Positions 1,517-54,214 of a stretch of 64,000 bases of DNA are shown piece after piece. The position numbers were made by a program, and so were the translations under genes. This stretch comes from Impatiens glandulifera (lineage: Eukaryota; Streptophyta; Magnoliopsida; Ericales; Balsaminaceae): assembly GCF_907164915.1 (NCBI RefSeq), contig NC_061868.1, positions 21,075,819 to 21,139,818 of the forward strand, written 5' to 3'. The notes beneath the pieces were generated by a model, which had not been told where the DNA came from, ran no database searches, and saw nothing but the letters and a program-made list of their open reading frames with translations. How positions within the stretch are numbered: position 1 is the first letter of the stretch; each line of letters begins with the position of its first letter.

Positions 1517-1722
1517 CACACTTAGTTAAAGTGTTATACTTGTTTTTGTTATGTTGTAAGTTCGAAACATACATATATCATTTTTCATTTTATTTTTAAC
1601 CGTTTTAAATTTATGGGTGGGTCAACCCATAATTTGACCCAAGTATCAATTTACTCTCACATATATATCCAAATTAACTACAACACTCGACCCATCAATC
1701 TAGACTTTAAAATTAAGCATCA

Positions 1723-1750
<28 letters not shown>
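1517..1750 (+). repeat. tRNA-derived SINE-like unit a (copy 1)
   Basis: A box-B-like motif (GTAAGTTCGAAAC near 1,556) follows a degenerate box A about 40 bp upstream. The body ends in ATTAAGCATCAATATATA and a TA run. The next unit has the same plan, and both recur in copy 2. Inferred to be a tRNA-derived SINE; no functional tRNA fold is apparent. Confidence 0.45.
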
Positions 1751-1754
<4 letters not shown>

Positions 1755-1802
1755 TAGATAAAAAATTGAAATTATATCGTTAAGAATGTTCCGCGATCAT
1801 CA

Positions 1803-2025
1803 AATTTAGTTAGCCTAGTTGGTAAAGAGTTGTACTTGTTTTTGTTAGGTTTTAAGTTTGAAACATACTTATAGCATTTTTAATCATTTTAAGTTTATGG
1901 GCAGGTTTACCCACAATCCAACTCGAATATTCATTTACTCTCACATATATATATATCTAAATTAACTACAGGTCTCAACCCGGTAATCCAGATATTTTAA
2001 AATTAAGCATCATTATGTATATATA
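1803..2025 (+). repeat. tRNA-derived SINE-like unit b (copy 1)
   Basis: It begins with TTAGCCTAGTTGGTAAAG, which resembles a tRNA box A. A box-B-like AGGTTTTAAGTTTGAAAC follows. Body and tail (ATTAAGCATCATTATG) align with unit a. The partner in copy 2 starts near 53,262. Confidence 0.5.
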
Positions 2026-2872
2026 TAGAGATGTGAAGTTGAGTATAAAGTCCTCTATCAATTAAACATTTTAATAAATTTTTTTTTTAAGAAATAAGTA
2101 GTAATCTTCAACATAACATGATTATACGTGACAATAATTAAATTGTTCAATTAATATATTCAATTATTCAAATAAAAAAATTGATAAAATGTTTCAAAGT
2201 TAAATTTAGTATTTTTAATATATATATTTTTAATCTTGAAAACTAATTCAACTAAATATATTTTTATTAATAAAAATTGAACTCATAAACTTCATTATAT
2301 TAAAAAAGATTCATATCACTTGATCTATTAATTCAATTTTACTATATATTAATTAAAAAACAACCAAAAATATTTATTTTGTTGGCTCTTAAAATAAATT
2401 CAAACTTTGATAAATTATGTACTCTTAATAAAATTCAATTTTTCTTATCACATAGTGAAATATCTAATCTTAAATAAATTTAACTGAATATTTTTACTTA
2501 AAAATAAAATCAAAATGATTATTACTGGCGGCACAAGCTAGCCATTCTACTTAAAAATGATTATTACTGACGGCACAAGCCAGTCCTTCTAAAACATAAA
2601 TTCGAATAAAAAACTTTAAGTAGTTGATTTCAAAATAATTTATAAAATAGTTTGTTTTAAGCAAAATCTTAATTAATTATCTATCATCTTCTCTTTCGCA
2701 TTAAATTTGAATCCATCAAAAAATAAAGTGTTTTGAAGCAAAATCTCAACTTGTTATCCTTCTTTTTCATGTTATTCTCTAACTCATGAGCTTGCCCGAA
2801 AAATATAGAAACGAATATATGTTTTAAGCATATGTAGATCAGAGATAATGAAAGAGAAATATATTTGGTCTA

Positions 2873-3120
2873 ATGGAGGATGGAATAGAGTCTTCAAACA
2901 TGACAGTGGTATGCAATTATAAATATTGCATGTCCACACTTCTCTTTATTTTATTATTTTATAAATACATTTACTTTTTTTGGAGGGCTTCGGACATAAC
3001 ATGGAATTGGGTATCAATGAACTACATTTCATGGAAAGGTTCGAAATGCTCAAATGAACCCAAGAAAAGTATCAAACTACCAATTTTCCAATAATATTGC
3101 TCAAGATTGGCACTTGGGAG
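2873..3120 (+). pseudogene. ASG1-like gene, copy 1, exons 1-2 (disrupted)
   Basis: Exon 1 is 2,873-2,908 (MEDGIESSNMTV) with a GT donor. Exon 2 is 2,986-3,120, ends KIGTWE and is followed by GTGAGG. These match exons 1-2 of the contiguous copy at 54,215-54,462. Copy 1 is broken three times. A TGA at 3,055-3,057 replaces the TCA codon of copy 2. The TATA-like TATAAATATA of copy 2 reads GAAAAATATA here. LTR-A is inserted at 3,350, five bases before where exon 3 should start, and exons 3-4 are absent from the window in this copy. The 3' remainder lies at 45,527-45,952. Confidence 0.75.
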
Positions 3121-3349
3121 GTGAGGGTTTTTGTTGGATCACAAAAACTTGTTTTCCATTGACTGACTATGTTGTTGTGTTTAGTTATATTTACTTTCTT
3201 CTAAACCATTTACAATTTTTTTTACAATTTGTTATAATAATTATTGGGTTAAAACTCTTTTGACTCTCCTTAAGTGGTTGATCATATAATCTTTTTTTTA
3301 AATAATATTTGGAATTGCACTAATACTAATTAACTTAAATAAATAATTA

Positions 3350-5008
3350 TGATAGGATCGACTTAATCAATAGAGATGGGGGTCTGGCGATTGATGAAGG
3401 CTTATGAAAAACGGTTTGAAAGAAATCTTGTTAGGGATTTAATTCACGCAAACCCTTGTAAACACTTGAAACAGAATCAAGTGCAGAAATGTTTACATAG
3501 GTTTGAAGCTTAGGAACAAGAATGAGAAGATGACAGAAAGTAACAACACATCAGTTTGTTTATGGATGTTCGGAGCAAACTCTCCTACGTCGCCCCTTCT
3601 TCCAACCACAGGAAAGATTCATTATAATATGCTTTGAATCAAATATAGTTTGCACGAATAACTCACTGTTGAAAAGACCAGACTCTGTTCAACTTACAAT
3701 CTGATGAAGATTATCACTCAGCTAAAACGATGCTTTGATTGTAACTCCCTCTTGGTAAACACACAGTAAAGTAAGAAAGTAGCGAACAGTTTGACAGAAT
3801 GAATGGATCGATTAATTTCACTCTCTGTAATTCCAGTAAGCAAGATAGTTCTTCCGTTGTCCTTGAGAATCTGTAAATATGAACAGGTACCAACGGTCAA
3901 ATCTTTATAATGACACGTGGCGAGCTTCCATTGGAATGCCTCCATAGTACACAGCAGACTCTGAATACAAGAATCGTGGCCGTACACAATAGGTAGTGCG
4001 CCGAATATTCTTCAGAAATGTACCTGCAAAATAAATACCGTAAAGGATATTCGCTTAATTGGCATTGGTTGATTGATTGCAGCTAGCTGTTGTACTAATC
4101 TTCACTAGAAAATGGAGCAAGAGTAGCGTACAGCTAGAGCACGTGGGTAGGCGGGTGCTAGCTTCAAGCAACTTCTTAAGCAAGGCATTAGACATATTTC
4201 AATTAGACAACCTCGTCTAATGAAATCAAACGTCCCAGTCTAATAGCTTGATCTATTAGACCACCTGGTCTAATGAAATTAGACTTCACGTATAATTACA
4301 ATCACTTTAGACTAATCTGAAGGAGTTAGATAACACGTCTAACTTTCACTAGTTAGACTGCACGTCTAACTATCACATTCCATTAGATTGCACGTCTAAC
4401 TCCACGAGTTAGACTACACGTATAATCACGGATCCACTTCAGACTAATCTGAAGAAGTTAGACTACACGTCTAACTTTCACATTCCATTAGACTGCACGT
4501 CTAACTCTACGAGTTAGACTGCACGTCTAATTACGGTTCCACTTCATACTAGTCTAAAGGAGTTAGACTACACGTCTAACTTTCACCAGTTCGACTGCAC
4601 GTCTAACTTTCTCTTTCCATTTAGACTGCATGTCTAACTCCATGAGTTAGATTGCACGTCTAATTACGAGTTCATTAGACTGCACGTCTAACTCCATGAG
4701 TTAGACTGCACGTCTAATTACGAGTTCATTAGACTGTATGTCTAACTCCACGAGTTAGACTGAACGTCGAATACCGCTTAGTTAGACTGCACGTCTAACT
4801 CTCTCCAGTTAGACTATACGTCTAACTCCGTGCATCTAAAGCCAAATCGGTTTAATGAACCTCATTAGAGCCAAGTCTAATGTAATCTATTTTCGATACA
4901 TCTGCATCAAAAACAATTAGACGCATATATAATCCATTCATCATTTTATCATCAAAATTCCGATAGTCAAACTATTTCAACACTCAGTCAAAATAATTTG
5001 ACCCAACA
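3350..5008 (-). repeat. 3' LTR of LTR-A
   Basis: On the plus strand it runs from TGATAGGATCG to CCCAACA, giving TG...CA ends. It is bounded inward by a polypurine tract and is alignable with the LTR-A2 LTR at 15,525-17,228. Promoter features on the minus strand are a G-box (CCACGTGTC near 3,916) about 10 bp upstream of ATTATAAAG near 3,907. A 45-bp block near 3,557-3,604 is shared with four other LTRs in the window. The 3' U3-side half is an array of short palindromes. Confidence 0.85.
4190..4850. repeat. Hairpin tandem array in the LTR-A 3' LTR
   Basis: There are about twenty degenerate copies of a short inverted repeat, GTTAGAC-N5-GTCTAAC, spaced roughly 30-35 bp apart. Typical loops are TGCAC or TACAC. 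A second dyad (TTCAGA...TCTGAA) recurs near 4,305, 4,437 and 4,545, which suggests a longer repeat period on top of the short one. Confidence 0.9.
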
Positions 5009-5174: not shown

Positions 5175-8100
5175 TTATTGTTCTTCACTTTTCACTCGAG
5201 GATCGACAGGGAAACAAGTTCGTTCATAGCTCATCCCTTCACCCGTCATCTCTTAACCGGTTAGCAAATTGCGAAAAGAAGGAAGAGCACGTCCACCACG
5301 ATCACCGCCACTAGTACGACCTCCGCGATCACTACTAGATTTCCCACCACGACCACCACTACTGCTTCGGCCTCCGCGATCAACACCGCTTCGACCTCCG
5401 CCTCTTTTAGTTGGCCTTGGATTTTCATCATTGGTTGGCGCTCGCTTAGATCTGGTGCCGGTTGATATACAGTCATCTCTTCTACTAGGCTCACCTTGAG
5501 TGATACGAGTCTGTTCTTTCTCAGCATCAGCTTTAGCATTCATTTTAGCTTGAAATTTCCTTGCAATGGAGTCGGCATACTCCAATGTTTCATCATCAGA
5601 TCTTCTCAGGCTACCTTGATTTTCAATCATCCGACTCTTAAATAACTCCATTGATTCCATGATCTCACGATGATTATCAAGATTTATTTGACTTTCAAGA
5701 CTCATCATTTCCGATTGACGACTGAAGAGCTGCTTTTCAAATTTGGAGAAATTTGAATTTGACACATGAGTCTCATACGTATTCTTCTTCAGTGTACTAT
5801 CCAACTCTTTAAGGATTTTGACATATTCAGCGAATTCTTTTCTTTCCTCTTTCTGGGTTTTCAAAACCTTTACCATATTTGATCCCATAGTTACCACATT
5901 CTTCTGAAGAGAGGTAAGAAGAGATGTCATCGACTTCAGAAGCTTGGTATCATCAGTAGAAGATCCTTAATTAGATGAATTATCTTGTGAGTCTGCTGCC
6001 ATGCTATAAATAGGATTAAATTTGGTGGGAATCTGCAGGGATTGCTCGGATTCATCCTTCTCAGACTCATTTCCAGTTTTATTCTACTCTTCTTCTTCCA
6101 ACTCCTCTTCTGCTCTCTGAACTCTTTCATACAGATTACCCTTGTTGTGAAGTGGATTGAGAATATTTTCATAGATGTTACCAACATTAATATCAAGAAA
6201 TGGTAGAGGCTTGACAATTCTAGCATTTTGATCATGTTTCCCCTTAGATGAGGATCTTTCTTCGCCATCTTTGTCTTTTGAGGGCTCCCCCTCAGATCTA
6301 ATAATCTCAGGCTGACTAACTTCAGCCCCCTTTTCTTGAGATCCCTCTGTTCTGACATCAGTGGATTTCACTACCTCTTTTTCATTGGGAGTTTGAACAA
6401 TCTCCTCAACAATTTCTTCCTCATGAATTACAAGATCTTGGACCGACTCTTGAATAATCTCTTCTTCTTCTTCTAAGGAAGGATTCTCTTGAATGGGTTT
6501 CTTATCTTGCTCGACAACGGGTTGAGCCAGTAAACGTCTTTCTTCTACAAAGAAATTTCCAAGCTCTATTAGAAGATCAACAACTTGCTCATCTGTATTA
6601 GCATGATCAGCAGAGATATCCATTGGTTCATCTTCATCGGAGAATTTACCAAAATAGCTAACTCCTGAACAATTAGCTCCATTAACATATCGAGTGACTA
6701 CAGAAAGATAGTCAGCCATGATCATATCTAATCTCTTTAAAACATTCGCTTCTACTTCAACACCTTTCTCAATAGGATTGAAATTTGCTTTTCTGGCTTC
6801 GAGGATGAAAAATAGTGCTTTTCCTCTTAGACATGCTTTGATAAGGTCCTTTCTCTTTAGAGCTTCAGACACCTTCGGAGTTTTATTCCATTTGAGAACC
6901 TTCTTTTCATTTGCTACAATCTTACGCCATTGACTACTTATTCCTGAACCTGTGATGATCTCATCATACTGGATTGACAATCTGTTCTGGATCCAAGTGT
7001 CAAAGATTTCCATCTTCTCAGCAGATATGGCTTTAACCTGATTCATCATGAGGTCAACAATGCATGTTGCCTCAGAAACATCTTCACTTTCTTCAGTTAC
7101 AATATCTTTCCCTTTTCCAACAGCCTCAACAGATTTTGGAGAGGGTCTTGGTTCACCAAATACAATTCCACACGACTGTCTTGTGGAACGCATCAATTTA
7201 TAAGCTGATTGTGGTTTCTTGAAAAGTCTAGGAGGAAGCTCGCCTCGAGTGAGCTTCCCGGTTACTATGGAATGTTTTAAATTGAGATTTGAGGAAGAAG
7301 GGTCTCTGACAGAAACAGAGGAAGCCTTTACGGCAGTATCACCAGCAACAAGGGTAAGGACTACACCTTGTTCAGGTTGAAAAAACTATGAAACACCAGC
7401 GGCTACTGGATCAGGTTGGCGAACAGGAGATTCAGTCCTGTCAATATTCACAATATTTGGACCAGCTGATTCAACAGCAGGCCGTGCAGCAGATTCTTTT
7501 TCAGGAATAAAAACAGATTTATCGTGTTCCATCACAAGAACATCAAATTTGGGCACACCGACCAGAGGTTGAGAAGAAGTTACCTTTGATGACACCTTCA
7601 TCGATTTAGACGCACGGGGCGCCTTAGACATGTCACCTTTTGAGACAGATGACCTTGAGGATCTCCGCAACTGACTAGCAGCCGGAGACAAGGCAGATAA
7701 TGGAATACTTGCAAGTTCAATTGGACCTTGCCTGACTCTATAATCGACTGTTTCATAATCCTTCTTTGAAGAGCTTCTTAGGCTAGTAGAACTAGCCTCT
7801 AATTCGTTGACTTTTTTCGATCTCTTTGCTCCTGTCGACATGATGGAAGCGACTAGTTGTCTGGATCTAGTAACCGATTTTCCACTTGTCTGTTGGCTAG
7901 AAGCACCTGAAGGCGATTCCTTAAGGTTTTTCATTCTGAACAGGGTGTTGGCGACTGTGAAAACAGTATACACCTTGTTCGAGTTGATTTGTTCAGGTTC
8001 ACCCATCGGAACCACCAAATGATCTAACAAACGGCTTAGTTGTGCAACGAAAGTTATACTTTTCTTGTTCTCCTGGTTGATGGAGAAGCAGAGATTCTGA

Positions 8101-8633
8101 AATAATGTTAAGGCCCAGTTGACCTGGATCCCCATTGAAATGGCACACATATATTCAAATCTATCTTGACTATAGAGATTGAATGATCCAGCCTTCCCTT
8201 GAAGCGCTTTTTCCACCACATTATTTAACAAAATAAATTGTGGTTTAAGGACTTTCTTACTTCCATTTAGTCGAATCGCCGAGCCATCGGCAAATAAAAC
8301 CTTCTTCATTTCTTCCATTACTTCTGATGACAGATGCCTATTGAAAGTATGACCCTCCGACGGAAGTTCGAAGAACTCTGCGTAAGAGGCTTCGTCGAAC
8401 GAGATCTCCGTAAAATTAATAGTGTCTACAATGGAATCGCCCATTGTTGCAGTTTGAAAGAACTCCCGAACTTCCTTCTCGTGAAAGATGAATGGACCGC
8501 CAAGATATTTTCCGAGACCGGAATACTCGAGGGTTCTGAATATATCGACCACTTTCTGCTGATCGAAAGAATAGACTGATGGGAAATCAATCTGCAAAGT
8601 ACAATGACCCAACATGATTCTCTTGTTCACCAT
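5175..8633 (-). pseudogene. Accessory gene of LTR-A (RGG-tailed protein, about 1,150 codons, four nonsense codons)
   Basis: One reading frame runs from ATG at 8,633 to TAA at 5,175-5,177. It is interrupted in frame only at 7,386 (TAG), 6,084 (TAG), 5,967 (TAA) and 5,253 (TAA). The N-terminal ~280 residues form a conserved block (GLGKYLGGPFIFHEKEVREF, FELPSEGHTF, LLNNVVEKALQGK). It recurs in LTR-D twice, and later segments recur in LTR-A2. A Ser/Lys-rich linker follows, then a helical region around EIFDTWIQNRLS, acidic stretches, a coiled-coil-like segment and an RGG/RG-rich tail ending near RNLLTG. The true C-terminus is inferred from LTR-A2, whose tail ends VKREGQ where this one ends VKSEEQ. 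RGG boxes are known RNA-binding or condensation motifs; the N-terminal block has no function I can name. The plants from which I recall similar proteins label them hypothetical or transposon proteins. Confidence 0.75.
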
Positions 8634-8749
8634 TTTCAGTAGAATATGAACCGACACAAGATTAGCACAGATTTTGGAGAGAGAAAGGCAAAGAAATCTA
8701 GGGTTCTTAGAAATCTTAAGTGAAAAAAAGAATTCAATCTCATGTAAGA

Positions 8750-8970
8750 ATTTCCTTATATAGACTATCAAGAGTCATATAGGATAACCGTCATTTTTCC
8801 TAGGGGTATGGCCCATCATTTAAAATTAGACGTCCTTTCCAAAGAGTCATCATTATAATGAGGGTATATCAGTCATTCTCTTTTAACTTGAAAGACACGT
8901 GTCTTCATGTTATTATGAGATGACTGCTTTAATGTTTGAGCGGAAAAATCAGATATCTCCTCACGTGGAC
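8750..8970 (-). promoter_or_regulatory. Private promoter of the LTR-A accessory gene
   Basis: The minus strand has CTATATAAGGAAATTCTT (TATA at 8,756-8,764) about 125 bp before the ATG. Upstream lie a perfect 14-bp palindrome AAGACACGTGTCTT (8,892-8,905) containing a G-box, and a second CACGTG at 8,962-8,967. Similar TATA contexts precede both accessory copies in LTR-D. Confidence 0.6.
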
Positions 8971-8984
8971 AGCTGTCATTGATC

Positions 8985-9320
8985 AATCTAATGAGCACGT
9001 AGTTAGACGTTTTTCTTACTTCAGATATCTATAAAACTAAACGTCTATTAGACGCATGGGCTTCATTAGATGCATACGTCTAATTACGTGTCATAAAGTA
9101 TACATCTACATTAAACGTGTACGTCTAATTATGTATAAACACCACGTATTAGACGTGTATTTGGTTAGACGTGAGCATCCTCTTGCTCATGATGTAAAAC
9201 GTCTAACGTCTATTAGACGTGTAAGTCTAACCGCGCAGGTTATAAACCTCATCATATAAACTTAGATGTATAGATTGTGAGAAAAAATACGTCTAATTAC
9301 AAACTTCTTCGTTTAGACAC
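8985..9320. repeat. Internal spacer with TAGACGTCTA-type palindromes
   Basis: Between gag and the accessory gene, AACGTCTATTAGACGT-like palindromes and single ACGTCTAAT or TTAGACGTG words recur. They are the same vocabulary as the LTR array but in a different phase. No coding potential is apparent. Confidence 0.7.
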
Positions 9321-11406: not shown

Positions 11407-11420
11407 GCTCTGATACCAAT
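11407..11420 (-). other. Primer binding site (tRNA-iMet type) of LTR-A
   Basis: The minus strand reads TGGTATCAGAGC two bases inside the 5' LTR edge, the standard plant Copia PBS complementary to initiator-Met tRNA. It fixes the element's orientation. Confidence 0.95.
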
Positions 11421-11535
11421 TGATAGGATCGGCTTAATCAATAGAGACGGGGTCTGGCGATTGATGAAGACTTATGAAAAACGTTTTGAAAGAAATCTTG
11501 TTAGGGATTTAATTCACTTTCTATTCTACGTGAAC
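11421..11535 (-). repeat. 5' LTR remnant of LTR-A
   Basis: The first 115 bp (TGATAGGATCGG...) match the outer end of the 3' LTR at 3,350. They also match LTR-A2 up to CTTTCTATTCTACGTGAAC. The rest of the LTR is missing beyond the solo LTR insertion. Confidence 0.85.
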
Positions 11536-12333
11536 TGTTAGGATCGGGGACACCCTTGGAGGACCGAGGTGTTTCCGGTTTAGAAAGGGTAGCCGCTTAC
11601 AACACGCAACACAATTTGGTGATAGTCCAGTTAAAGACTACAACCGTTCTCAACACTACGCAAACTGTCACAGACTCTTGAACCGGGTTCAAGGGCGGAA
11701 ATGTCTATTTCAGTCTGAAGCAACGCACGCGGCTTGGATGAGGTTTATGAAGGGTCGGTTTAAGGAGTATGAATAGACCGATTTTGATTAAGAAGTAAGA
11801 TTATGTTTTGGTTAGTATTTGTTCGGTTTTTAGGTAGATAAGTAGGAAATAAGTAAAAAGACTCGAGACAGGATTTTTTATGGATGTTCGGAGCAAACCC
11901 TCCTATGTCACCCCTTCTTCTCAGGTTATGAGAAGGATCTCCACTAACTTTCAAAGTTACAACAATTACACTGCCGGTCGAGCCTAACTCGCTACTCGCC
12001 GGTTACACCAACTCACTCTTGATGTAATACACCACAATAGATCTTTCGGTAAATGAAACAACAATTTTGAATCGCGCGTGAGATTTCTTTCTCTCTCTTA
12101 AGTATTTCTGAACCGTAATAAATGAGGTCGCTTCGTCTTCCTTTTATAGTGAAGAGGATCCCAGCGGTCACTTTCTTCTCTCACCGTGGGATTGGTCAGT
12201 TCAGGGTCACGCCGGTTCAGAGAGGTCGCTTGCACGTTTCAACTTCCTGACACTTGGCAAGCATGCATATACCTTTATATGCATCATCTGCCAACTCTTG
12301 GCATCATCGTCTTGACACCCTTCATCATCAACA
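11536..12333 (-). repeat. Solo LTR (LTR-D-related)
   Basis: It runs TGTTAGGATCGG...CATCATCAACA (798 bp), flanked by TGAAC and TCAAC, a 4/5 match to a 5-bp target duplication. Minus-strand features are ACTATAAAAGGAAG (complement at 12,138-12,150) and the shared LTR block at 11,876-11,920. Terminal and TATA sequences resemble LTR-D, but the body differs, so it is a separate subfamily. No internal sequence accompanies it, so LTR-LTR recombination is inferred. Confidence 0.75.
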
Positions 12334-12339
12334 TCAACC

Positions 12340-15212: not shown

Positions 15213-15524
15213 TTAAGATTAAAGTTATCTTGTTTGTTTAATGAGCTTAAAAGTGAAAACATGACTTGTAATAATTTGATCACAACCCATATTTTACTCA
15301 TTGCTCTTTGCAATTATATATATATATATATATTAATTTAGTTATATAAGATAATCCTATAGTCACTATTTTTCATTTTTAATTGAGACAATATAATTGA
15401 TACTTAAAGTTATTTTAATGTGTTTTGTTTGAATTATATTTAAATTCATGTCTGTATTATTTGAATATTAATGGAAGATTTAAAAAAAATAGTAAATTAA
15501 ATTCATCCCAATTGAAATGGAATA
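15213..15524. other. AT-rich spacer between CopG and LTR-A2
   Basis: About 310 bp of AT-rich sequence with a short TA run near 15,310. I see no gene or repeat match. Confidence 0.6.
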
Positions 15525-17228
15525 TGATAAGATCGGTGCTAACAATAGAGACGGGGGTCTGACTATTGATGACAACTTCGGAAAATGGCTTGATAGAAAT
15601 CTTGTTAGGAATTACTATCACTTTCTATTATTTGCAAACCTTCACAAACACTTGAAACGTTTCAAGTGTGGAATTGTTTGTTTGGGTTTGAAGCCATGAA
15701 CCAATGAATAATGAAAGACAGGAGGAAAGAACATAGAAAGATGTTTATGGATGTTCGGAGCTAACTCTTCTACGTCACCTCTTCTTCCACAGTTGGAAGG
15801 ATTTCACTAAACTTCTTGAATCAAATACAGTTCACTGAATAGTTAACACTCTGTTGAACAGAACAGACTCTGTTCAACTTACAATATGATTAAGAATATC
15901 TCTCAGCTAAAACAGTGTTTTTGATTCTCTCTCTTGATCTTGAATATGATGTACAATTAGTAAGTGCTAGAGTGATTCGTAATGTGAGTAGAGTAACTTC
16001 TGATTGTTCTGGAAGATTTGTCCGTTGTCCTTGAACAACTAAATATTGTGGAAAGACACCAACGATTAAATCTTCTGTATGGACACGTGACACGCGCCCA
16101 TAGGATGGTTGCCTAAATGACACAGTACAACAGACTCTGTACTGAACGGTAGTGCGCGAGATATCCTTTTGCAACTATCCGATATTGAACAAGTAGTGGA
16201 AGGAATATTTGCGTATGTGGCGTTCATTCATTTGATACAGGTAGCTGGCATACTAATCTGCAAGAGAAAGTGGAGCAGGAGTAGCGTACAACTAGTTGAT
16301 CGTGGGTAGACATATAATAACTTCAGACGGCTGCTAAAGAGAGGCATTAGATGTGCTCCATTAGACCACCAAGTCTAATAGAGTTAGATGACAAAATCTA
16401 TCAAAGAGATCAATTAGACTACCACGTCTAATGGAGTTAGACTGTACCGTCTAACTACACATCCCATTAGACTACCACGTTTAATGAAGTTAGACTTTAA
16501 CGTCTAACCTTACATCAATTCAGACTAATCTAAAGGAGTTAGACGCTAACTTCATGTCTGTTAGATTTGCACGTTTAAATACGTATCTATTAGACTTGCA
16601 CATCTAACTACGTATCTATTAGACATGCACATCTAACTACGTATCTATTAGACTTACACGTCTAACTACGTATCTGTTAGACAGACACGTCTAACTACCT
16701 ATCTATTAGACTGAAACGTCTAGCTACGTATTTGTTAGACTAACACGTCTAACTACGTCTCTATTAGACTTGCACATCTAACTACGTATCTTTTAGACTA
16801 GCATGTCTAACTACGTATTTGTTAAACTTGCACGTCTAACTACGTATTTGTTAGACTGGCACGTCTAACTACGTATTTGTTATACTAGCACGTCTAACTA
16901 TGTATCTATTAAACTAGCACGTCTAACTACGTAACTGTTAGATTAACACATCTAACTATGTATCGGTTAGTCTAGTAAATCTAACTACGTCTCTATTAGA
17001 CTTGCACGTCTAACTACGTATCACGTCTAGTTAGCCTATTTAGACCACGTCTAACTAGCTAAATCTGATGCACATACATAGAAACAATTAGACGGCTTAG
17101 CTTTATTCATATCTAAACATCATCAAAACTTAATTGATTAATATTTAGCACTTTTCTGTTAATTAACTTTTTACTTAGTTTTTCAAACAATTTCTTCTAA
17201 GTTAATTAACTCATAATGTTTCCCGACA
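15525..17228 (-). repeat. 3' LTR of LTR-A2
   Basis: TGATAAGATCGG...TTCCCGACA, 1,704 bp, aligns with the LTR-A LTR at both ends and across the shared block (15,743-15,789). A G-box (TCACGTGTCC, minus) is kept near 16,083, but the adjacent TATA appears lost. The palindrome array differs in unit length from LTR-A. Confidence 0.85.
16340..17060. repeat. 29-bp hairpin tandem array in the LTR-A2 LTR
   Basis: From about 16,540 there are roughly seventeen copies of a 29-bp unit. Each carries TTAGAC-N5-GTCTAA and a TACGTA spacer. More diverged copies lie to the left. Variation is concentrated in the loop (TTGCA, AGCAC, ACACA). Confidence 0.9.
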
Positions 17229-17459: not shown

Positions 17460-17696
17460 TTATTGTCCTTCCCTTTTCACGTTTGCATCTTCATCTTCTA
17501 CATCCAAAGAGTTTCTAGTTAGGAGGTTGAGATAACGATTGGCAGCACCTCAACCACCTCTATTTCTTATACGACTTGAGCTTTTCTTTCTTTGTCTTAG
17601 ACCTTCTTCAATTTCTTCAGTAGCTTTTCTCTTGGATTGGGTTCCTCTAGGAGCTCCACCTCTAGAACTGCCTCCTCTTGAACTACCCTCCCCTTT
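17460..17696 (-). pseudogene. Accessory gene of LTR-A2, 3' fragment with RGG tail
   Basis: The minus-strand reading gives SSRGGSSRGGAPRG, a basic KKSSSRIRNRGG stretch, one internal TGA, then NRYLNLLT and ending VKREGQ with TAA at 17,460. It is homologous to the C-terminus of the LTR-A accessory protein and separated from the rest of its gene (27,172-28,912 and 36,875-37,080) by the LINE and LTR-D insertions. Confidence 0.75.
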
Positions 17697-27171: not shown

Positions 27172-28912
27172 TAATATAGCAGCAGCAGGGAGTACAACAC
27201 AAGATCTTTCTTTAATGTCGTTGGGTTCGACCACTTCAATTGCTTGAATGGATCTAGCAAGAAAATCAGCTTGCTCCATTCTTTATGCTTCGTCTCTACC
27301 CATAGATTTGGTCATTTCCACCGTTTGAGCTTGAACGAGATCAATTGAGTTTACTAAGACCTGATGGAGTTCCAAGTTGAAGGCCTTCATCTCGGCATGT
27401 TGTTCTATTTGAGTATTAACGACTCTTTTCTAAAATTTGTTGTGCTTGGAATTTGTAATGTTGAATTTATAAGTGTTTCGGTGCATGGTCTTCTCCAATT
27501 ATTTATGAATAGCGAGGAAGGAGGACATCTCTTTCTGATTTTCACCGAGCCCTATTCAAGATTTACCAACCTGGACTGCATATCCGCCATGTTCATATTG
27601 ATGGAACTTATTGCATCCATCATAATATGAATTTTTCATCTCCGTGAAGCGCCTCTTCGGGAGAGAAAGCAGCTAAGGACACAGAATGAGAATGAGAAGG
27701 AGCAGTCTGAATCTGACTCACATGCATGTTCACTTGTAAAGAATACTTGGGTTCTTTTTACTTTGAATGTGAATAGGTAGACTTAGACGCATCCTTGAAT
27801 TTGTCTTCTTAATTTATGATATCAGCACAAACTTTTCTAATTCCTCCTGAAATGTCGTCAGAATGTAGAGGAAGTTTATTAACATACTCGTCAATGTTTG
27901 TCGCCATAATGACAAGAGATGATCGAGGAACAAGAGACATTGGAATGAAGAATTCTTCCAAAGGAATACCCTCTGAAGAATCTTCCTTAGCATTTAGTGC
28001 CTCCTCAGCAGTAGAGGGAATTTCCTCGAGATTAGCTTACTTCAAAGGTTCCTCCTTTGATTCTAAATTCGGAGACTTATCAGCAATCTTTGTTGATTCA
28101 TCTTTTTCCACCAAAGGCTCTTCTTCAACATTAATTGTAGGATTCACTTCAGGTGTCTCCTTCGGTTAAGAATTAGATAACCGAGCTTCAACAACAACTT
28201 CTTCTTCTTCTACCAGTTTTTCAGCTTGACCCACAATAAGGGTTTGATCAGTAGTCTGCATGGCAGTTAGACGTATCTCTTCAAAAGAAGTATTTGCTAA
28301 TTCAACGAGATGGGCAGTAGCCTGCTCATCTTCTTCTACCTTGGACTGATTAACATAAAAAATCTCTATAGTTTCGTCTTCTTCGAAAGATTCGTGAAAT
28401 AGAGTCAACCAAGATGACTCTGTGTCGTGAGCCTTTTGGAGAACGATTGTGCAATAACTATTCAGAATGAGATCCAGCCTTTTCAAAGCAGTCTGCTTCG
28501 TACGAGCATCTCTTTCCATAGGGTTAAAATTAGTTTTTCTCTTTTCTATCATGGGAAGAAGAGTATGTCCAATGATGTTTGCAACCACCAGTTCCATTTG
28601 ATTAAGGGCTTCAGAAACCGCGTCTTTCATAGCCCATCTTAAGATCCTCTTTTCATTCTTTATAACGTTCTTCCATTCATTAACTATCTCCTTATCTGAG
28701 AACATCTCATCGAAATGAGTTTCCATTCTGTAATTTACCCAAGTGTCAAAAAAGTTAATTCTTTTAGCAACCCTCTCCTCAACCTGCTCCATTTCTAGGT
28801 TGACTATGCAGCCAAATTTAGATACTTTCTCAGGAGATTTAACAAAAGTATCCTTTCCTTTTTCTTTAGGATCCTCATCAAGTTTAGGTTTGGGAAAGTA
28901 CATAGGTTCGTG
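27172..28912 (-). pseudogene. Accessory gene of LTR-A2, middle part
   Basis: Minus-strand residues 28,903 to 28,166 include RINFFDTWVNYRMETHFDEM, WAMKDAVSEALNQMELV and NFNPMERDARTKQTALKRLD. They align with the LTR-A accessory protein around EIFDTWIQNRLS and NFNPIEKGVEVEANVLKRLD. Below 28,166 reading continues through several stops and frame changes (NIDEYVNKLPLHSDDIS) to the LINE insertion. The upstream continuation is across LTR-D at 36,875-37,080. Confidence 0.75.
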
Positions 28913-29893
28913 TGTTAGAAAAATTAGATAAGTTAATTAATAAGTAATTAACTATCTAAAAGAACTTAATTAAATTTCAACTCTATGTGCATGTACATAC
29001 TTTCAATCTGACCGGTCAAAGTCATTCTCCCGTAACAGCATAAAGTGAAACAACTTATTTCTATTGGAAGTTTGGCTCGGCTAGAATTCAGACCGGTCAA
29101 GTTATCAACCGACATGTGTCTGTCAGACCAAAGTCTAAGAGAAACATATACTCTTAGCGGACAATGTTAAATCAAAACAAGATCAAAATATGGATACAAT
29201 GGAAGTTGACGTGTTAATACAAATATATATTCCTCGGAATGTGCAGAAGAAGATTTTCAAAGGTTCAAACTACGTCACTTGTATTCTGAAACAAGTCTGC
29301 TGATTAGACTGAAGGGAGCTATCAGATGAATAATTACTGTATTTTGTATAAATCCAGAAGCAACCTTCAAAGAGTAGGCAGTCGCCCAATGTACAACTGC
29401 CAAGTGTACAAAAACACAAACGTACAAGCTACCTAATTTCAAGCCAGCACGGCATCATCATTTGAGAAGTTTCCATCGGATTGCTGATCCTTTTGACCAA
29501 TCATCTAAGAGAGAGAAATATGACCGTTGTCATATTTCCACTATAAAAGGAAGCTAAAGGGCTTAGAAAAAGTTTCTTGCTCGCATTCTTGGTTACAAGA
29601 AGAACTAACAAACAAGAAAAGATTTTTCACAACCTTCTCACTCTTGCGAACATACTTTGAGAAATCTACAAAGCTATTAATTGATAAGAACAAACTGAAA
29701 AGTTTTGCGTATTTACATATTTGTGAGAGTGTATTACAATACTATGTGAGTGTTGTAAAGTGAATATTGAGCAGTAAATAAGACTCGATTGTGTGTTGTA
29801 TTGTGTTGTTGAATATTCGTTAGTGAATATCCTTCTCATTGTTTGAGAAAAAGGGGTGACGTAAGAGTTTTATCTCCGAACATCTATAAAACC
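28913..29893 (+). repeat. 5' LTR of LTR-D (3' truncated)
   Basis: Closely matches 35,609-36,589, with TATA box CTATAAAAGG at 29,541-29,550 and the shared LTR block at 29,845-29,891. After ATAAAACCGTTGG it leaves the LTR and enters internal sequence, whereas the 3' LTR continues for about 285 bp more. Confidence 0.85.
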
Positions 29894-30019
29894 GTTGGCA
29901 GGACAGTCTACGTTACACTTTCCCAAGTTACATCTTTGAAAAAGGAATATTTTATTCAAGTCTCAAAAAGTATTCACTTTGGGAATATTGACAAAATATT
30001 TCATAACGGATAAATTCAA

Positions 30020-30790
30020 AATCACTCACCTATTTAAGGAACTCTTCATCACAAACAAAAATCACAACATTCGTGATCTCTCTCTAGACACAAAAAGTTC
30101 TCTCTTTCAAAACTATCAAGATGAACTCACACATTCGATCATCCTTAATCATTGATTTTGAGTCTTCTTTAACCTCAAGAACAAGTGGAATCATCTTTGA
30201 ACCACTTGTCAATTTTGGTTTGTAGAAATTCTTAAAAGGATCCGACTCCATTCTGGATTTGGAAGTAATCGATTTCTTCGATAATGCCACTATATTGGAA
30301 GATGGAAGAATTATCGTTTTTGTGCAACACTTACCCTTCGTGATCTCTGAAGAAACGTTTTCCAAACTCTTCGACTTGCCATCCAAAGGCTTTTCGGATT
30401 TTCCCTCTTTTTCTATACCTGCCCATGAGGAGTTTTCATAAATATTTTCAAACACCCCCAATCTGGTCAACTGTCACGGTCTGAAATCCGACCTTGCCCC
30501 CTATTTTGAAATCTACCACGATATCATTCAATGATCCATCCTGGGATATGTGATGAATCAATACTACACTCGATAGGTGTATGAAATGATGGTTGCCATA
30601 ACCTGCAAAACACCCATCAACTGGGATTCTATTATCTTCAAAAACTTGTAGAAGTTGATCGAATCCCCTAGAAGAAGGGTCGGCTATGCGCCTCAGATTA
30701 ACCGGTACATTCGCTCTATCATTCCAATTTCAGATCTTGGACCGGGAACCACGGTTACTTCGGCCAACATTCTGACCGAAGAATCGAATG
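30020..30790 (+). pseudogene. Accessory gene copy H1 of LTR-D
   Basis: ATG at 30,121 opens MNSHIRSSLIIDFESSL, preceded at about 30,029 by CTATTTAAGGAACTCTTC, a TATA context like those of the other copies. The reading includes VEDATILEDG-like NATILEDGRIIVFVQHLPFV and FSKLFDLPSKGF, homologous to ASYAEFFELPSEGH of LTR-A. Further segments (DLAPYFEIYHDIIQ, MMVAITCKTPINWDSI, RSIIPISDLGPG) match later parts of the N-terminal block. At least six stops; only the N-terminal ~220 residues remain before the next promoter region. Confidence 0.6.
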
Positions 30791-31149
30791 GAAGATGGAT
30801 CCAGAGAATTCAATACAGGCCTTAAGACTTTTAATTTAGCCAGTTTTAATGCACAGCTAGTCATTTTGATGTACGACCGATTGTTTTATCTAACCGGACT
30901 ATGTTTGAATTTTAAAAGAAACCGTTTTAATTTAAATAAATGTTCTTCATTTTTCGGTTCATCATTATTCGGTTTAGTTTAAATTTGGTTTACTTTAATT
31001 CTGCTCATTTTAAATTTATCTCTTGAAACTTACTATCAAACAAGTTTACCGCACACTGTTTATCAACCGCATTTACCGTTGATTTTTTTTTACCGCCAAA
31101 GAGTTACCGTAGTAAATTTTGGAGGGAAAGTTGTAGTCTTTTTGCTGAG

Positions 31150-31305
31150 AGGGTGTGACGGTTCGGTGACAAAACCGCCACAACCGATCATCTATATAAA
31201 GAAATCTTGAACATTATTTTACTCACATCGTTTATCTCTCTAGAAATCTCTCTTACTATTACATCATATCTCTTCATCTTTCTCAAGTTTTTCAAAACTT
31301 TTACC
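31150..31305 (+). promoter_or_regulatory. Promoter and leader of accessory copy H2
   Basis: CTATATAAAGAAATCTTG (TATA at 31,192-31,200) lies about 110 bp before an ATG in ACCATGG context at 31,306, through a CT-rich leader (TCTCTCTAGAAATCTCTC). The arrangement parallels the LTR-A accessory gene. Confidence 0.6.
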
Positions 31306-34250
31306 ATGGGACGTGATAGTGCACTCTTTGTTCATATCATTCAGGTTGATTTCGAGAAGATTCAAAGTAAGGGAGGAGGCTCGAAGGCTGATGGATGCGA
31401 TCTAGAACTTAGGGCTGGAGTTCTTCCTTATAGGTCCATTCGTCCTGCATCAGGATGAAGTTAAGGTGTTCTTTGAGAATGCCAAACTGAAGAAGAAGGT
31501 AATCCATGCAATGGTGGGAAGTAAAAAATTTCAGATAACGGAGGAGGTGCTCGTAGAAACCCTTCATCTTCCAATAGAGGGACGAGAAATTCTGACTGAT
31601 CTATCGGAAGAAGAGGCTTTGAAGATTTAGAAGATGATATCCAACACGGATGAACCAGTAGAGTTCACCGGAATGAAAAGTACCTTGAAATTCGAATAAC
31701 GGATGCTACTTGACATCGTCGAAAAATCTATTCAAGGAAAAGGAGGTAATTTCGATAATCTTACCCAGTCCAAATTTAAAATGATGGCCGAAATTATTCG
31801 CGGTGACAAAATAAACTAGGTCGCTGCCCTATTTGAAATTCTGTGTGAGATGGTGGTTGGGAAGAAGGACCGGTCCCTGGGGTATGCGGTGCAGATCGAC
31901 AAGATTCTGACCCACCTTCAGATTCCAATCACTCTAGATACCGTTCTCCATAAGAACAAGGTTCTTAATTCTGTGAATATTGGGAAGATCTTGGTTCAAG
32001 CCGGAAAGGCCAAAGCACCAAGAGAAAAGCAACCGAAAGAGAAAGAAGCGAAGGCTAAGAAGCCCAAGGTGAAAGAAACGATGCAAACAACTAAGAAAGG
32101 AAAGATGTCGGTCACTGAGAAAGAGACCAGTGCAATAACCAACAACGATAGAACACATACTGATACATCTATCAAACCGAATAACCGCGAAGGTACCCCT
32201 GTCCCCACTTCGGCTAATGTTCAGATTCAAGCCGAACCTATTCAGAATCCGGAAAATCCTCAAAATCCGGAAAATCATACTCGTGCTAAATCATCGGCCG
32301 GCATAACCGGCCAATCTAAATCTAAAGAAGCTCTTATTCCTGAGGTAAGTACCCCTACTCCAGCTTCTACATTTATACATAGAACCTCCAATATTCAAAT
32401 TGTTGAGCCTGCGGCGTTAGAGGTCCAACATAGAACGTTGAATATTATTGATAACGTTGTAAAATATGTCAATTGGTTGGTTGAAACCGATGTGACGAGT
32501 AACCGAGTTAAGACCGGTTAGACAGCGTAAACTGACCGGGCAGATAATGTTGAACAAGCCAATGAGACGGATGAAAGACATGCAGAACAAGCCGATGAGA
32601 CGGCTGAAAGAAATGAAGAAGAGACGTTAGGTGAACATTCTCTAGTACATGAGAGTGCCCATACCACTGGAGGTCCAATCAGTCCAGTTGGTGAAGAAAA
32701 TATTTCAACCGGACCTGATCAAAATCCAACTCAAAAGGAGACGGTTAATAATACAGTCATTCCGGATTGTGAGATTCCGAACTTTAAAAAGACCGATGAT
32801 AGGGATGATGGAATTTTTTATGGTGTTCTCAAAATGGTTCCGGAAGACGCTCATGTTTTATCAAAATTGTTCTATGAATGGTCGAGACTAAGGACTGAAA
32901 CACTATTTGAGGACATGCTCCCAGATTATTCTGAAGCCGACAGGTGGTCCAACTTAATAAACTTGGAGAGAAAGGTGTCTGAGTTCGCCAAGACATCAAC
33001 CGTACCGTTAGCCATGTCAAGGGCAAGGTTGGTAGAAACCAACGCAAAATTAAAGATACTAACGTCAACAATGGATACTGTTTCTCAAAATCATATGGTT
33101 AATGGTGGAATAACCGGGGTAGATAAGAGCATGTTCGATGCACTGGAATCGGTTGTAGAGAGACTTCAAGCCGATATCTAGAGAATGGAAGAAGAAAACG
33201 AGAGGAATGTTTCAATGAACTTCACTCCGGTTGAAAAGGCTGGCCAAATCGGGAAATAAACAACTTTTGAGTTCGGTCAATCATCTAGAACGATAGGGGA
33301 TGAACATGAAGAAAGTCAACCGAAATTTCCCTCTGCGTCTCCAGATAAAGAAGATGGCGCAATAGTTTCTCCATCCACCGCAAATGTACAGGGCAAGGAC
33401 ACAACTGTTGACAAGAATCCATCGGGTAAGTCTCCTAACCGAAATTAATATATAGAGAACAACCCTCCAAGACAAACCGGCCCAACTCTATCATTATTAG
33501 TTCATTCTACGCCTCCGGTACAAAATCAAGTTTTTATTCCATTTCCGGATGAAATGAAGGCATTCATCCATAAAAGGGTTCAGGATTCCATGCCTCGTGG
33601 CAGGCATCTCTAGACGCTAAGGCTTCCTCGTGGCAGCCATCTCTGGAAGCTTGGGCTTCTTCGACTAATTCTAAAATTGAGAATATTGAAAAGGTCACGT
33701 CTCAAACTCTAGAGATGGTGCAAGCCATGTTGGTCCAGATAGATGAGTTGGCAAGAATCAAAGTTGTTGCACATGAAGAACATATACGAAGAGATGAAGA
33801 AACGGCCAGAAAGATTCAGGCCAATGAGGAAGAAATGGCACGGCTAGCCAAGGAAACCGAACTTACTGACGCAGAATTAGCCTAGAGAATTCAATACGAG
33901 GAGGATAATCCTGAAGTGGCTGTACAAGCAAACGCCAGTGCGGCTAGAAACTTTCAGCAACAACATATTTTAGCTGTGGCAAATGATGAAAGAAGACAAA
34001 CATCCACACTAATTGCCATACAGATAAGGGCTCAGGCAAAGAAAAGAAAAAGAGAACAAGTAACAACGGTTCTAGATGGTGCCGCACAGACAAGTATTTA
34101 GACGGCTGCGAATCCAGCCGGTGGTTTAAACAGTCCTATTGCTGATGAAGAAGTGGAAGATATTGCACCTCTAAACCCAAAAAAGTGTTGGCCTGCAGCC
34201 TCAACCACACCGGTTTCACCAGCTCCAACAATTTGTCCGCTCTAGTGCCC
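31306..34250 (+). pseudogene. Accessory gene copy H2 of LTR-D
   Basis: It opens MGRDSALFVHIIQVDFEKIQ. A frameshift near 31,390 moves reading to the frame giving NLGLEFFLIGPFVLHQDEVK, matching GLGKYLGGPFIFHEKEVREF of LTR-A. One frame then runs to about 33,610 with stops near 31,628, 31,697, 31,817, 32,519, 32,528, 33,179, 33,257, 33,446 and 33,611. A Lys-rich linker (near 32,010-32,110) and Asn/Pro-rich segments are followed by a WSRLRTETLFEDM helical region. After a second frame change there is a long coiled-coil-like stretch (EETARKIQANEEEMARLAKE) and a basic AQAKKRKREQ motif. No RGG tail is seen, unlike LTR-A and LTR-A2. Confidence 0.65.
33586..33655 (+). repeat. 33-bp tandem duplication in accessory copy H2
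   Basis: Two units of CCTCGTGGCAG-CATCTCT... encode SSWQ(A/P)SL(D/E)A(K/W)A twice in frame. Confidence 0.75.
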
Positions 34251-35790
34251 GGTCAGATCAATGAACTAGAGCAGATTCGGTTGAACACTTTATGTAGAGT
34301 AAGAGATCCTCACCATTCCAAGCTCATGCTCAACCGATGAGACACCAACAGTCGGTTGGATTCTCAGGTCAACTGGGTGGCAGTTTTTAAGATCCCACTG
34401 CTCCTGGAACGGGTTTCGTATACAGATGGGTCCACGAAATGATCAGCCAACCAGAGAAAAGGGGCCATTAATCTCTCAACCTTTAATATTTCATTTTCAA
34501 ATATATATATATATATATATATCTTATAATCATAACTTATGATATTTTAGAAAATGCAAAGTTTTGGTTTCAGTTTCAACTTACTAGTTTTGATACATTT
34601 AAGTAAAAATATCATAAAGGGAGAAATTCTAAGTATACAAATTTTTTCAAGGTCAAAATTCTTCCTCAAATAAAGTTCCCCTTTTATCAAATTGTTTTCC
34701 CAACACCGGCCAAATAAATATAAGTTCTTTTAAAAAACAATCGGCCATCGATTACAGGGTTTTGAATATTTAACTTAAATAATCAAAAATGGAGGAATTG
34801 TTAGAAAATTAGATAAGTTATTTAATAAGTAATTAAATATCCAAAAGAACTTAATTAAATTTCAACTCTATGTGCAGGTGCATACTTTTAACCTGGCCGG
34901 TCAAAGTCATTCTCCCGAAACAGCATAAACCGAAACAGCTTATTTATATCGGAAGTCCGGCTCGGCTATGAAGATGTTGCACCTCTATTCCCAAGAAAGC
35001 GTCGGCCTATAGCCTCAACCACACCGATTTCACCAGCTCCAATTCAATTTGTCCACTCCAGTGCCTAGTCAGATCAATGAACTAGAGCAGATTCGGTTGA
35101 ACACTTTATGCAGAGTAAAAGATCCTCACCATTCCAAGCTCATGCTCAACCGACGAGACACCAACAGTCGGCTGGATTCTCAGGTCAACCAGGTGGTAGT
35201 TTCCAAGATCCCACTACTCTAGGAACGGGTTTTGTATACAGATGGGTCCCCGACACGATCAACCAACCGGAGAAAAGGGGCCAATAATCTCTCAACCTTT
35301 AAGATTTCCGTTTCAAATATATATATATATAACTTATAATTATAACTTATGATATTTTGGAAAATGCAAAGTTTTCAGTTTTAGTTTCAACTTACTAGTT
35401 TTGATACTTTTAAGTAAAAATATCAAAAAGGGACAAATTGCTAAGTATACAAAATTTTTCAAGGTCAAAATTTTTCCTCAAATAAAGTTTCCCTTAAATC
35501 AAACCGTTTTCCAAACACCAGCCAAATAAATATAAGTTCTTTTTAAAACAACAGCCATCGATTACAGGGTTTTGAATATTTAACTTAAATAATTAAAAAG
35601 GAATAATTTGTTAGACAAATTAGTTAAGTTAATTAATAAGTAATTAACTATCTAAAAGAACTTAATTAAATTTCAACTCTATGCGCAGGTACATAATTTC
35701 AACCCGACGGGTCAATCATTCTCCCAAAACAACATAAAATGAAACAACTTATTTATATCGGAAGTCCGACTCGGCTAGAATTCAGACCGG
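34158..35790 (+). repeat. Tandem 816-bp duplication across the LTR-D 3' LTR boundary
   Basis: 34,158-34,973 and 34,974-35,790 match throughout. Each unit holds the end of the accessory gene, a TA run, a purine-rich tract (ATGGAGGAATTG or AAGGAATAATTTG) and the first ~170 bp of an LTR starting TGTTAGA. LTR-D therefore has two LTR starts, 34,799 and 35,609; only the second leads into a whole LTR. Confidence 0.9.
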
Positions 35791-36874
35791 TCAAGTTATC
35801 AACCGACATGTGTCCGGTCAGACCAAAGTCAAGAGCAACAAATACTTTTACTGGACAGTGTTAAACCAAAACAAGATCAAAATATGGATACAATGGCAGT
35901 TGACGTGTTAATACAAACATATATTCCTCAGAATGTGAAGAAGAAGATTTTCAAAGGTTTAGACTGCGTCACTTGTATTCTGAAACAAGTCTGCTAATTA
36001 AACTGAAGGGAGTTGTTAGATGAATAATTACCGGATTTTGTATACATCCAGAATTAACCTTCAAAGAGTAGGCAGTCGGACAATGTACAACTACCAAGTG
36101 TACAAAAACACAAACGTACAATCTAACTAATTTTAAACCAGCACGGCATCATCATTTGAGAAGCTTCCACCGAATTACTGATCCTTTTGACCAATCATCT
36201 AAGAGAGAGAAATATGACCGTTGTCATATTTCCACTATAAAAGGAAGGTAAAGGGTTGAAGAAAAGTTTCTTGCTCGCACTTTTGGTTACACGAAGAACT
36301 AACGAACAAGAAAAGATTTTTCACAACCTTCTCACTCTTGCGAACATACTTTGACAAATCTACAAAGCTATTGAGTGATAAGAACAAACTGAAAAGTTCT
36401 GCGTTTTTACATATTTGTGAAAGTGTATTACAATGCTGTGTGAGTGTTATAAAGTAAATATCGAGCAGTAAATAAGACTCGATTGTGTGTTGTATTGTGT
36501 AGTTACATATTTCTTAGTGAATATCCTTCTCATTATTTGAGAAGAAGGGGTGAGGTAGGAGTTTTATATCCGAACATCCATAAAATCGTTGTCTTATGTT
36601 CTTTACTTATTTTCGATCACCAAACCAACCGAACCGGTTTTCCCTCATTCTAACCAATCATTCTCTACTTTCTTCTTTAACCGATCCGTGTGTGTTACTT
36701 CAGGCTGAAACAAACATTTCCGCTCTTGAACCCGGTTCAAGAGTTTGTGACAGCCTGTGTAGTGTTAAGACCAGTGTTAATTCTTAACCGGATTAGCACC
36801 AACTGTTGTGTTTGTGTTTAAGCGGTCTCCTTTAGCTGGACCCCGGTCCCCTATCGGCGATCCTGATCCTAACA
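35609..36874 (+). repeat. 3' LTR of LTR-D
   Basis: TGTTAGACAAATTAG...GATCCTAACA, 1,266 bp. TATA box ACTATAAAAGGAAG at about 36,234-36,247, shared LTR block at 36,540-36,586. Followed by TCGAG, the right target duplication. Confidence 0.85.
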
Positions 36875-51558: not shown

Positions 51559-52281
<723 letters not shown>

Positions 52282-54140: not shown

Positions 54141-54150
54141 TATAAATATA
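54141..54150 (+). promoter_or_regulatory. TATA box of the ASG1-like gene, copy 2
   Basis: TATAAATATA lies 74 bp before the ATG at 54,215. The copy-1 equivalent is mutated. Confidence 0.55.
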
Positions 54151-54214
54151 GCAAGGAATATATGTTTTAAGCATATGTAGATCAGAGATAACAAAGAGAA
54201 ATATATTTGCTCTA

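Follow-up and report, generated by a model that had tools for sequence, protein, structure and literature searches.

LTR-A, a retrotransposon copy in the 64,000-nucleotide stretch of Impatiens glandulifera contig NC_061868.1 analysed here (the window), belongs to a multi-copy Copia family that lacks pol and has the layout long terminal repeat (LTR), primer binding site (PBS), gag, internal promoter, sense accessory gene, LTR. Both gag and the accessory gene are under purifying selection, and the half-site of a short palindromic motif that is dense in the LTRs recurs in the candidate promoter of the gene. Homologues of the gene lie in two neighbouring elements, once in LTR-A2 and twice, as the tandem genes H1 and H2, in LTR-D (Table 1). 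We infer that the gene corresponds to the 3' extra open reading frame (ORF) of Sireviruses, the 'ENV-like' gene or eORF-3'F. This resemblance, a distant similarity to the Transposase_32 domain and the motif shared by promoter and LTR were all missed by a first-pass annotation of the same DNA, which had proposed RNA recruitment, packaging or anti-silencing as inferred roles of the product.

The family traits were read from 20 genomic copies (L009-L028), picked from the 101 that were scored out of 17,463 first-look candidates for their spread of identity (71-94% in the N-terminal block, or N-block) and favouring some without stops in that block (6/20 are stop-free there). Each was fetched as 10 kb, spanning -3000 to +7000 relative to where the match starts. 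The gag gene precedes the accessory gene in 19 of the 20, its start in the 10-kb stretch falling at 251-466 in 18 copies and at 1069 in L024, while L010 has no gag and was retained in the means. Within 3 kb upstream of the gene, pol was found in none of the 20 copies, even at E up to 1; the same query does find pol in other nearby insertions (L020, L032, L033 and L034). The exact 12-mer of the PBS lies ~2.65-2.85 kb before the ATG in 10/20 copies and its first 8 bases are present in 14/20, with six copies carrying neither, and as gag and the promoter-bearing spacer fill the interval between PBS and ATG, there is no room for pol. Missing pol looks like a family property in the copies examined, and decay of one copy was rejected as its cause because 0/20 other copies have pol upstream. 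The insertions in L020 and L032 carry a related gag (42-49% identity to LTR-A gag) followed by pol, and are possible autonomous partners.

In the window itself, Pfam finds gag and no pol match in LTR-A and neither gag nor pol in LTR-D; the pol fragments at 12301-15000, on the opposite strand, are part of a separate Copia. The earlier description of elements that keep PBS, polypurine tract (PPT), LTRs and gag without pol thus holds for LTR-A, with the restriction that its 5' LTR is reduced to a remnant of about 100-116 bp, and is not borne out for the PBS of LTR-D, as the only exact PBS 12-mer of the window is that of LTR-A. The length given there for the LTR-A gene, 1,153 codons with four nonsense codons, was revised to 1,126 codons from the first ATG, with three internal stops and the terminal one.

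Median pairwise dN/dS (nonsynonymous over synonymous divergence) among A-type copies covering >60% of each query is 0.23 for gag (190 pairs, 20 copies), 0.21 for the N-block (210 pairs, 21 copies including the window), 0.31 for the mid domain (190 pairs, 20 copies) and 0.33 for the C block (153 pairs, 18 copies); L015 and L024 yielded no C block, and L015 has only part of the mid domain. Since decay after insertion raises dN/dS, these ratios are conservative. Stops amount to 28 in 8,685 N-block codons. Between LTR-A and LTR-A2, pN is 0.40 and pS 0.69, with pS near saturation and the protein-guided alignment leaning towards low pN. These medians, together with the homologues in LTR-A, LTR-A2 and LTR-D, bear out the view of the first-pass annotation that selection has kept this extra gene in more than one family. 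Among L009-L028, mean dS is 0.33 in gag and rises to 0.58-0.61 in the accessory gene, a gap that points to recombination or to a difference in constraint.

The anatomy ahead of the gene is similarly well kept. The motif CTATWTAARGAA, a pattern chosen after the sites had been seen, occurs exactly three times in the 64 kb (0.14 expected), ahead of the LTR-A gene, H1 and H2, with its first base 130, 91 and 114 bp before the respective ATG, and the private TATA box noted earlier for these three copies is thereby confirmed. The wider CTATWWAARGAA is found six times (0.37 expected), at the three internal sites and in three D-type LTR core promoters. Among the 20 copies the strict CTATWWAARGAA is kept in two (L009 and L027) and most carry CTATATAAGGACAT, while a TATA core [CT]TATWWAW[AG] stands at -128 to -133 in 19/20 (the position in L009 corrected for its later match start) and is absent from L018. 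The TATA box octamer CTATATAA is kept in 85%, compared with an average of 45% and a best value of 95% for the remaining octamers in the last 300 bp. The earlier claim of an own promoter stands at the level of anatomy, which is conserved in 19-20 of 20 copies and supports a putative internal promoter. A relic reading would take the frame for the eroding 3' end of a standard gag-pol transcript and the TATA and motifs for incidental. In its favour are the stops and insertions of the window copies and the N-block stops of many genomic copies. Purifying selection, the conservation across 20 other copies of the half-sites and of where the TATA lies, and the failure to find pol in those copies (0/20) speak so strongly against such a relic that we consider it hardly credible and rejected it.

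Half-sites of the form TTAGAC/GTCTAA are dense in three places of the window only: the LTR-A LTR (39), the LTR-A promoter (12) and the LTR-A2 LTR (32), where means over 2,000 shuffles per region are 1.4, 0.7 and 1.9, respectively. In the LTR-A LTR they build the palindrome TTAGAC-N5-GTCTAA, present in 11 exact copies where none is expected, and the spacing in LTR-A2 is mostly 6. Those of the promoter are dispersed and mostly isolated, apart from a close inverted pair and an everted pair. As no tandem repeat was reported over the promoter zone, the flanks of the half-sites are dissimilar (likeness 33% in the promoter, 40% and 47% in the LTRs) and blastn listed no match between the promoter stretch and the LTR, the promoter sites are not accounted for by plain duplication of part of an LTR. 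The same distribution is seen across the family, with 12-17 half-sites in the kilobase before the ATG in 20/20 copies, 21-64 in the delimited 3' LTRs (14/14; the LTRs of six copies are undelimited), 1-5 per copy in the 3.4-kb coding part of the 20 copies and none in gag in 18/20 (one in L020; 66 in L010, which has no gag). Six-base retention is 0.85 for half-sites and 0.51 for other hexamers of the zone (0/5,000 permutations), and the p-distance is 0.043 in half-site columns versus 0.126 in other columns. Over the whole promoter stretch, -900 to -1, divergence is 0.15, where mean dS in the adjacent N-block is 0.61. As regards CpG islands over the motif clusters, a mark of Sireviruses, the observed/expected ratio of CpG is 1.21-1.40 in the LTR-A and LTR-A2 arrays and in the LTR-A and H2 promoters, 0.88-0.92 in the LTR-D LTR, 0.59 in the H1 promoter and 0.43-0.78 in gag, coding regions, other LTR-A parts, a long interspersed nuclear element (LINE)-like insertion and the rest, with G+C of the regions at only 0.32-0.39.

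Palindromic arrays of this kind could alternatively act as RNA or DNA secondary structure, as a small-RNA source or decoy, and not as protein sites. As RNA, four stretches of 141 nt, two of array and two of promoter, fold better than their shuffled versions (z -3.8 to -4.9), and the accessible text of PMC10760457, citing earlier work, mentions an excess of small RNAs on the palindrome clusters of maize Sireviruses. The promoter half-sites are mostly isolated, however, and being upstream of the TATA box they would fall outside the accessory mRNA, though inside an LTR transcript, so that we regard hairpins as a very improbable explanation.

Which motif a promoter carries goes with the clade of the N-block that follows it. 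Each of the 21 A-clade promoters, that of the window and those of the 20 copies, holds at least 12 TTAGAC, no CGGTAA and 1-4 ACCG, while among six H2-clade promoters (four fetched, the window and L030) five have 2-5 CGGTAA, all have 11-20 ACCG and five lack TTAGAC. The LTR of LTR-D shares the ACCGG/ACCG enrichment with the H2 side. Another locus, L031, has the LTR, H1-type gene, H2 gene, LTR layout of LTR-D, with LTRs 72% alike and no gag by tblastn; because it repeats this layout, the tandem genes of LTR-D are no accident of the window. The D-type loci L031 and L034 each have two tandem N-block genes, which in L034 are A-like and H2-like.

Based on these patterns, we tentatively favour, with somewhat less than even confidence, a nuclear trans-acting factor that serves its own family, is made from its own promoter and belongs to an element borrowing pol from autonomous Copia, perhaps in the manner of VANC. 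The gene would be transcribed from its internal promoter, and the protein would enter the nucleus and act, directly or indirectly, through the motif arrays of the family, raising transcription or blocking silencing of the family LTRs and of its own promoter. Autonomous Copia elements would supply pol, and the family-specific motifs would give preference for own copies. Selection should keep a gene in a pol-borrowing element only if the product favours the copies that encode it, and a bias of this sort would come from the family-specific motif arrays at both promoters. In VANDAL transposons, VANC proteins favour their own family via motif arrays, according to the available text of PMC5735166. 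A more specific version, in which the ENV-like gene is a self-recognition factor and each lineage's protein binds its own LTR and internal-promoter arrays (TTAGAC in the A clade, GCGGTAA in the H2 clade) and counters silencing, appears rather unlikely on the sequence patterns at hand.

The main rival to a protein that reads the arrays itself is a host transcription factor that binds the half-sites and co-activates LTR and gene, leaving the protein some other task, for example chaperoning or nuclear import of gag-RNA particles via its RGG tail. The basic leucine zipper (bZIP) factors prefer ACGT, and 9/12 promoter half-sites extend to TTAGACGT, which contains an ACGT core. RGG tails are present in LTR-A, LTR-A2 and the relatives P0003 and P0004, and the repeated motifs of Sireviruses were matched mainly to stress-factor sites in the sections available of Bousios 2010 (PMC2829016). 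Alone, a host factor does not predict the pairing of motif with N-block clade and leaves the retention of the gene by a pol-less element unexplained; we see it as possible, if doubtful. Less probable again is a structural or packaging protein, a partner of gag in RNA binding, particle assembly or movement, with the array setting the expression level only. Gag and accessory gene do occur together in 19/20 copies at similar dN/dS, and the RGG tail would suit such a role, but LTR-D of the window has the gene twice and no gag by Pfam, L031 repeats this situation, and hydropathy reveals no membrane segment, which makes packaging an improbable primary function.

Several observations weigh against the trans-acting factor or against its pairing with the motifs. 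The H2-type promoter of L034 holds 14 TTAGAC and that of L032 lacks CGGTAA. In L034 an A-like gene with a 37% identical N-block adjoins, whose own upstream kilobase has 10 TTAGAC, and the sites probably come from this gene just upstream; at L032, one more N-block gene lying upstream, L032_up (790 bp), shows 10 ACCG alongside one TTAGAC. H1 has a TATA box and no motif array, and two H1-type promoters have two and zero TTAGAC and no CGGTAA. In LTR-D of the window CGGTAA clusters only in the H2 promoter, and the H2 coding region is also ACCG-enriched, so the link between LTR and promoter is weak in this element. Only six H2-clade promoters were seen, and clade and element family are thus confounded. 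Gene conversion between copies could contribute to the likeness of their promoters. Nuclear entry is suggested by one short KRSK-like basic patch kept in relatives, a simple heptad test for a coiled coil is equalled by 385/2,000 shuffles, and AlphaFold models of N-block and mid domain are too poor for use (predicted local distance difference test, pLDDT, 43.1 and 48.0).

The protein itself can be described from matches within the window and from public Impatiens proteins. In agreement with the shared domains of the first-pass annotation, tblastn in the window matches the LTR-A N-block to H2 (31412-31999, E 5e-24) and H1 (30142-30723, E 7e-11), the mid domain to LTR-A2 (28894-28244, E 3e-39) and weakly to H2 (E 0.006), and the C block to LTR-A2 (27543-27241, E 2e-11). 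The two RGG tails were likewise recovered, with five RGG in LTR-A and the LTR-A2 end at 17693-17550. A profile and structure check of the N-block gave little: for LTR-A, the N-block alone hit 0 Pfam families at E up to 10. The H2 N-block matches nearly the full profile of PF20167 (Transposase_32) at 23.6 bits (E 5.2e-5), where the curated cut-off is 45 bits, and weaker matches were obtained with parts of P0001 (19.2 bits, E 0.0012) and P0010 (16.5 bits, E 0.0082). LTR-A and H1 gave no PF20167 match and no sequence reached the cut-off, so the N-block may be a distant, sub-threshold relative of Transposase_32. Hydropathy over 19 residues peaks at 1.40 in LTR-A and does not exceed 1.35 in P0003, P0004, P0008 and P0009; the P450 anchor in P0001, used as control, reaches 2.38. 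Envelope identity was rejected for this lack of a membrane segment, and the gene should not be called an envelope gene. The basic patch, AKRSK-like, is kept in P0003, P0004, P0008 and P0009. A sequence search of the PDB returned a best E of 0.21, and homologous-protein searches (2, 4 and 6 matches, the last scoring only the 7,993 most word-sharing candidates) matched Impatiens glandulifera alone; proteins of Dorcoceras may also bear a resemblance. Two public Impatiens gene models are chimeric, joining an N-block to a cytochrome P450 (P0001) and to an NF-YB-type histone-fold gene (P0010), probably through insertions near genes.

Much of LTR-A recalls Sireviruses. It shares with them a Copia gag, the PBS, the junction of PPT, AT and TG, an inverted repeat bordering the PPT, a C-rich stretch close to the LTR end, a TATA box of the cTATA(A/T)A(T/A)Ag type and a palindromic motif in the upper half of the LTR that is found again just before a sense gene preceding the 3' LTR. 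The terminal PPT octamer of Sireviruses, AGGGGGAG, is followed by AT and TG, as is AGGGGGAA at 5018-5007 in LTR-A, and the G-to-A variant seen here has been reported for two Sireviruses. Beside the LTR-A PPT lies the inverted repeat ATCATCAAAA, its partner ~50 bp inside the LTR (10-bp match); LTR-A2 has a 9-bp match and none was seen in LTR-D. In the available sections of Bousios 2010 (PMC2829016), 13 Sireviruses have palindromic repeated motifs in their LTRs, 77/79 copies of the linker motif lie upstream of the ENV gene, and linker motifs occur in nine Sireviruses with ENV and in none of four without it, while six other ENV elements are described as free of the motif. The suspected internal promoter of Sireviruses is not conclusively identified in those sections, whereas a candidate TATA is conserved here. 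Further differences are the missing pol, the lack of a transmembrane segment by hydropathy and the LTR-A motif TTAGAC-N5-GTCTAA, which is without a CGG-CCG core. An extra 3' gene is present in 74% of SIRE elements and falls into 19 groups with little or no mutual similarity, its function being questioned (PMC6317226, as available), and the accessible part of PMC3414828 states that the function of the ENV-like gene lacks experimental proof. Multiple PPTs were not found before the 3' LTR of LTR-A (AGGGGGA occurs twice in the window, at the terminal site and at 6286 in the coding frame). As these are wanting and there is no reverse transcriptase (RT) by which to place the element, LTR-A is best termed SIRE-like and is not filed as a proven Sirevirus.

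Other systems share single features with the family. TR-GAG elements are defined by LTRs and gag without pol. The present copies agree in their LTRs, in gag (19/20) and in the absence of pol upstream of the gene (0/20), and differ in having a further long gene under a candidate promoter of its own. Grande belongs to another superfamily. Its gene23, as cited in the part available of PMC7264820, is an accessory gene with its own promoter and a nuclear product; it is antisense to gag-pol, whereas the gene here is sense. Like VANDALs with VANC, the family combines an element-borne protein gene with non-coding arrays of dense short motifs that differ between related families, a distribution with scarce coding sites that is seen in the A family and more weakly in LTR-D. 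VANDALs are not LTR elements, and binding and demethylation have been shown for VANC (available text of PMC5735166 and PMC10398659), whereas the likeness here is one of sequence. The 3' extra ORF of Athila in sunflower is also sense and similar to PF20167, and is predicted there to be nuclear with a nuclear localization signal (PMC11728184, text as available). Athila is Gypsy, while the present family has a Copia gag without pol and a PF20167 match far below the curated cut-off. No prior description of such a family was found in the literature searched, which leaves out most subscription papers.

Table 1 Features of LTR-A, LTR-A2 and LTR-D in the window (positions counted from its first nucleotide).
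Feature	Position	Strand	Remark
LTR-A 3' LTR	3350..5008	-	39 half-sites at offsets 85-814, upstream of TATA-like box near offset 1098
Polypurine tract AGGGGGAA	5011..5018	-	then AT and TG of LTR
LTR-A accessory gene	5253..8633	-	1,126 codons, three internal stops and terminal stop
RGG-rich C-terminal tail, LTR-A gene	5256..5405	-	
Mid domain, LTR-A gene	6477..7151	-	common to LTR-A2, weakly H2; helical in low-confidence model
N-block, LTR-A gene	7914..8633	-	~240 residues; relative of H1, H2
Private TATA box CTATATAAGGAA	8752..8763	-	130 bp before accessory gene ATG
Zone of 12 TTAGAC/GTCTAA half-sites	8826..9318	-	upstream of TATA box
Copia gag domain PF14223	10812..11270	-	Pfam E 6.8e-17
Primer binding site TGGTATCAGAGC	11407..11418	-	LTR-A
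LTR-A 5' LTR remnant	11421..11536	-	blastn match 11421-11517
LTR-A2 3' LTR	15523..17228	-	32 half-sites
LTR-A2 gene, RGG tail	17550..17693	-	LINE separates tail from rest
LTR-A2 gene remnant	27241..28894	-	mid domain and C block
LTR-D 5' LTR	28913..29897	+	truncated
H1 TATA	30030..30041	+	
H1	30121..30822	+	N-block only, with stops
14 ACCG/CGGT sites	30876..31186	+	upstream of H2; 1.9 expected
H2 TATA	31192..31203	+	
H2 gene remnant	31306..34250	+	end approximate; N-block 31412-31999; mid-domain match 32867-33091
LTR-D 3' LTR	35609..36874	+	

The elements are nested and interrupted. LTR-D sits inside the LTR-A2 gene, flanked by an imperfect 5-bp target duplication TCGTG/TCGAG (28908-28912 and 36875-36879), and the LINE-like insertion (approximately 18401-27165), whose RT-like frames were recognised by reading and not with a profile, lies between the rest of the LTR-A2 gene and the RGG tail and 3' LTR that belong to it. 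A solo LTR of a D-like family (11537-12310) adjoins the 5' LTR remnant of LTR-A. Elsewhere in the window, a long repeated segment links 1-3351 with 51187-54689 (~85-89% identity, 51 kb apart), and a 67-bp unit, repeated in tandem about 15 times and showing a 267-bp higher-order period, occupies 61239-62271.

The role and expression of the extra 3' gene of Sireviruses are an old question, which becomes testable here in one genome because the gene is under purifying selection, its candidate internal promoter is conserved, and promoter and LTR have a motif in common. A pol-less family that keeps gag and an accessory gene also bears on why non-autonomous elements retain protein-coding genes. If both PF20167 matches hold, of which the one here is sub-threshold, one domain would link the extra 3' genes of Copia and Gypsy. 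Self-recognition, if true, would amount to a VANC-like co-evolving control loop in LTR retrotransposons that sustains a pol-less, non-autonomous family.

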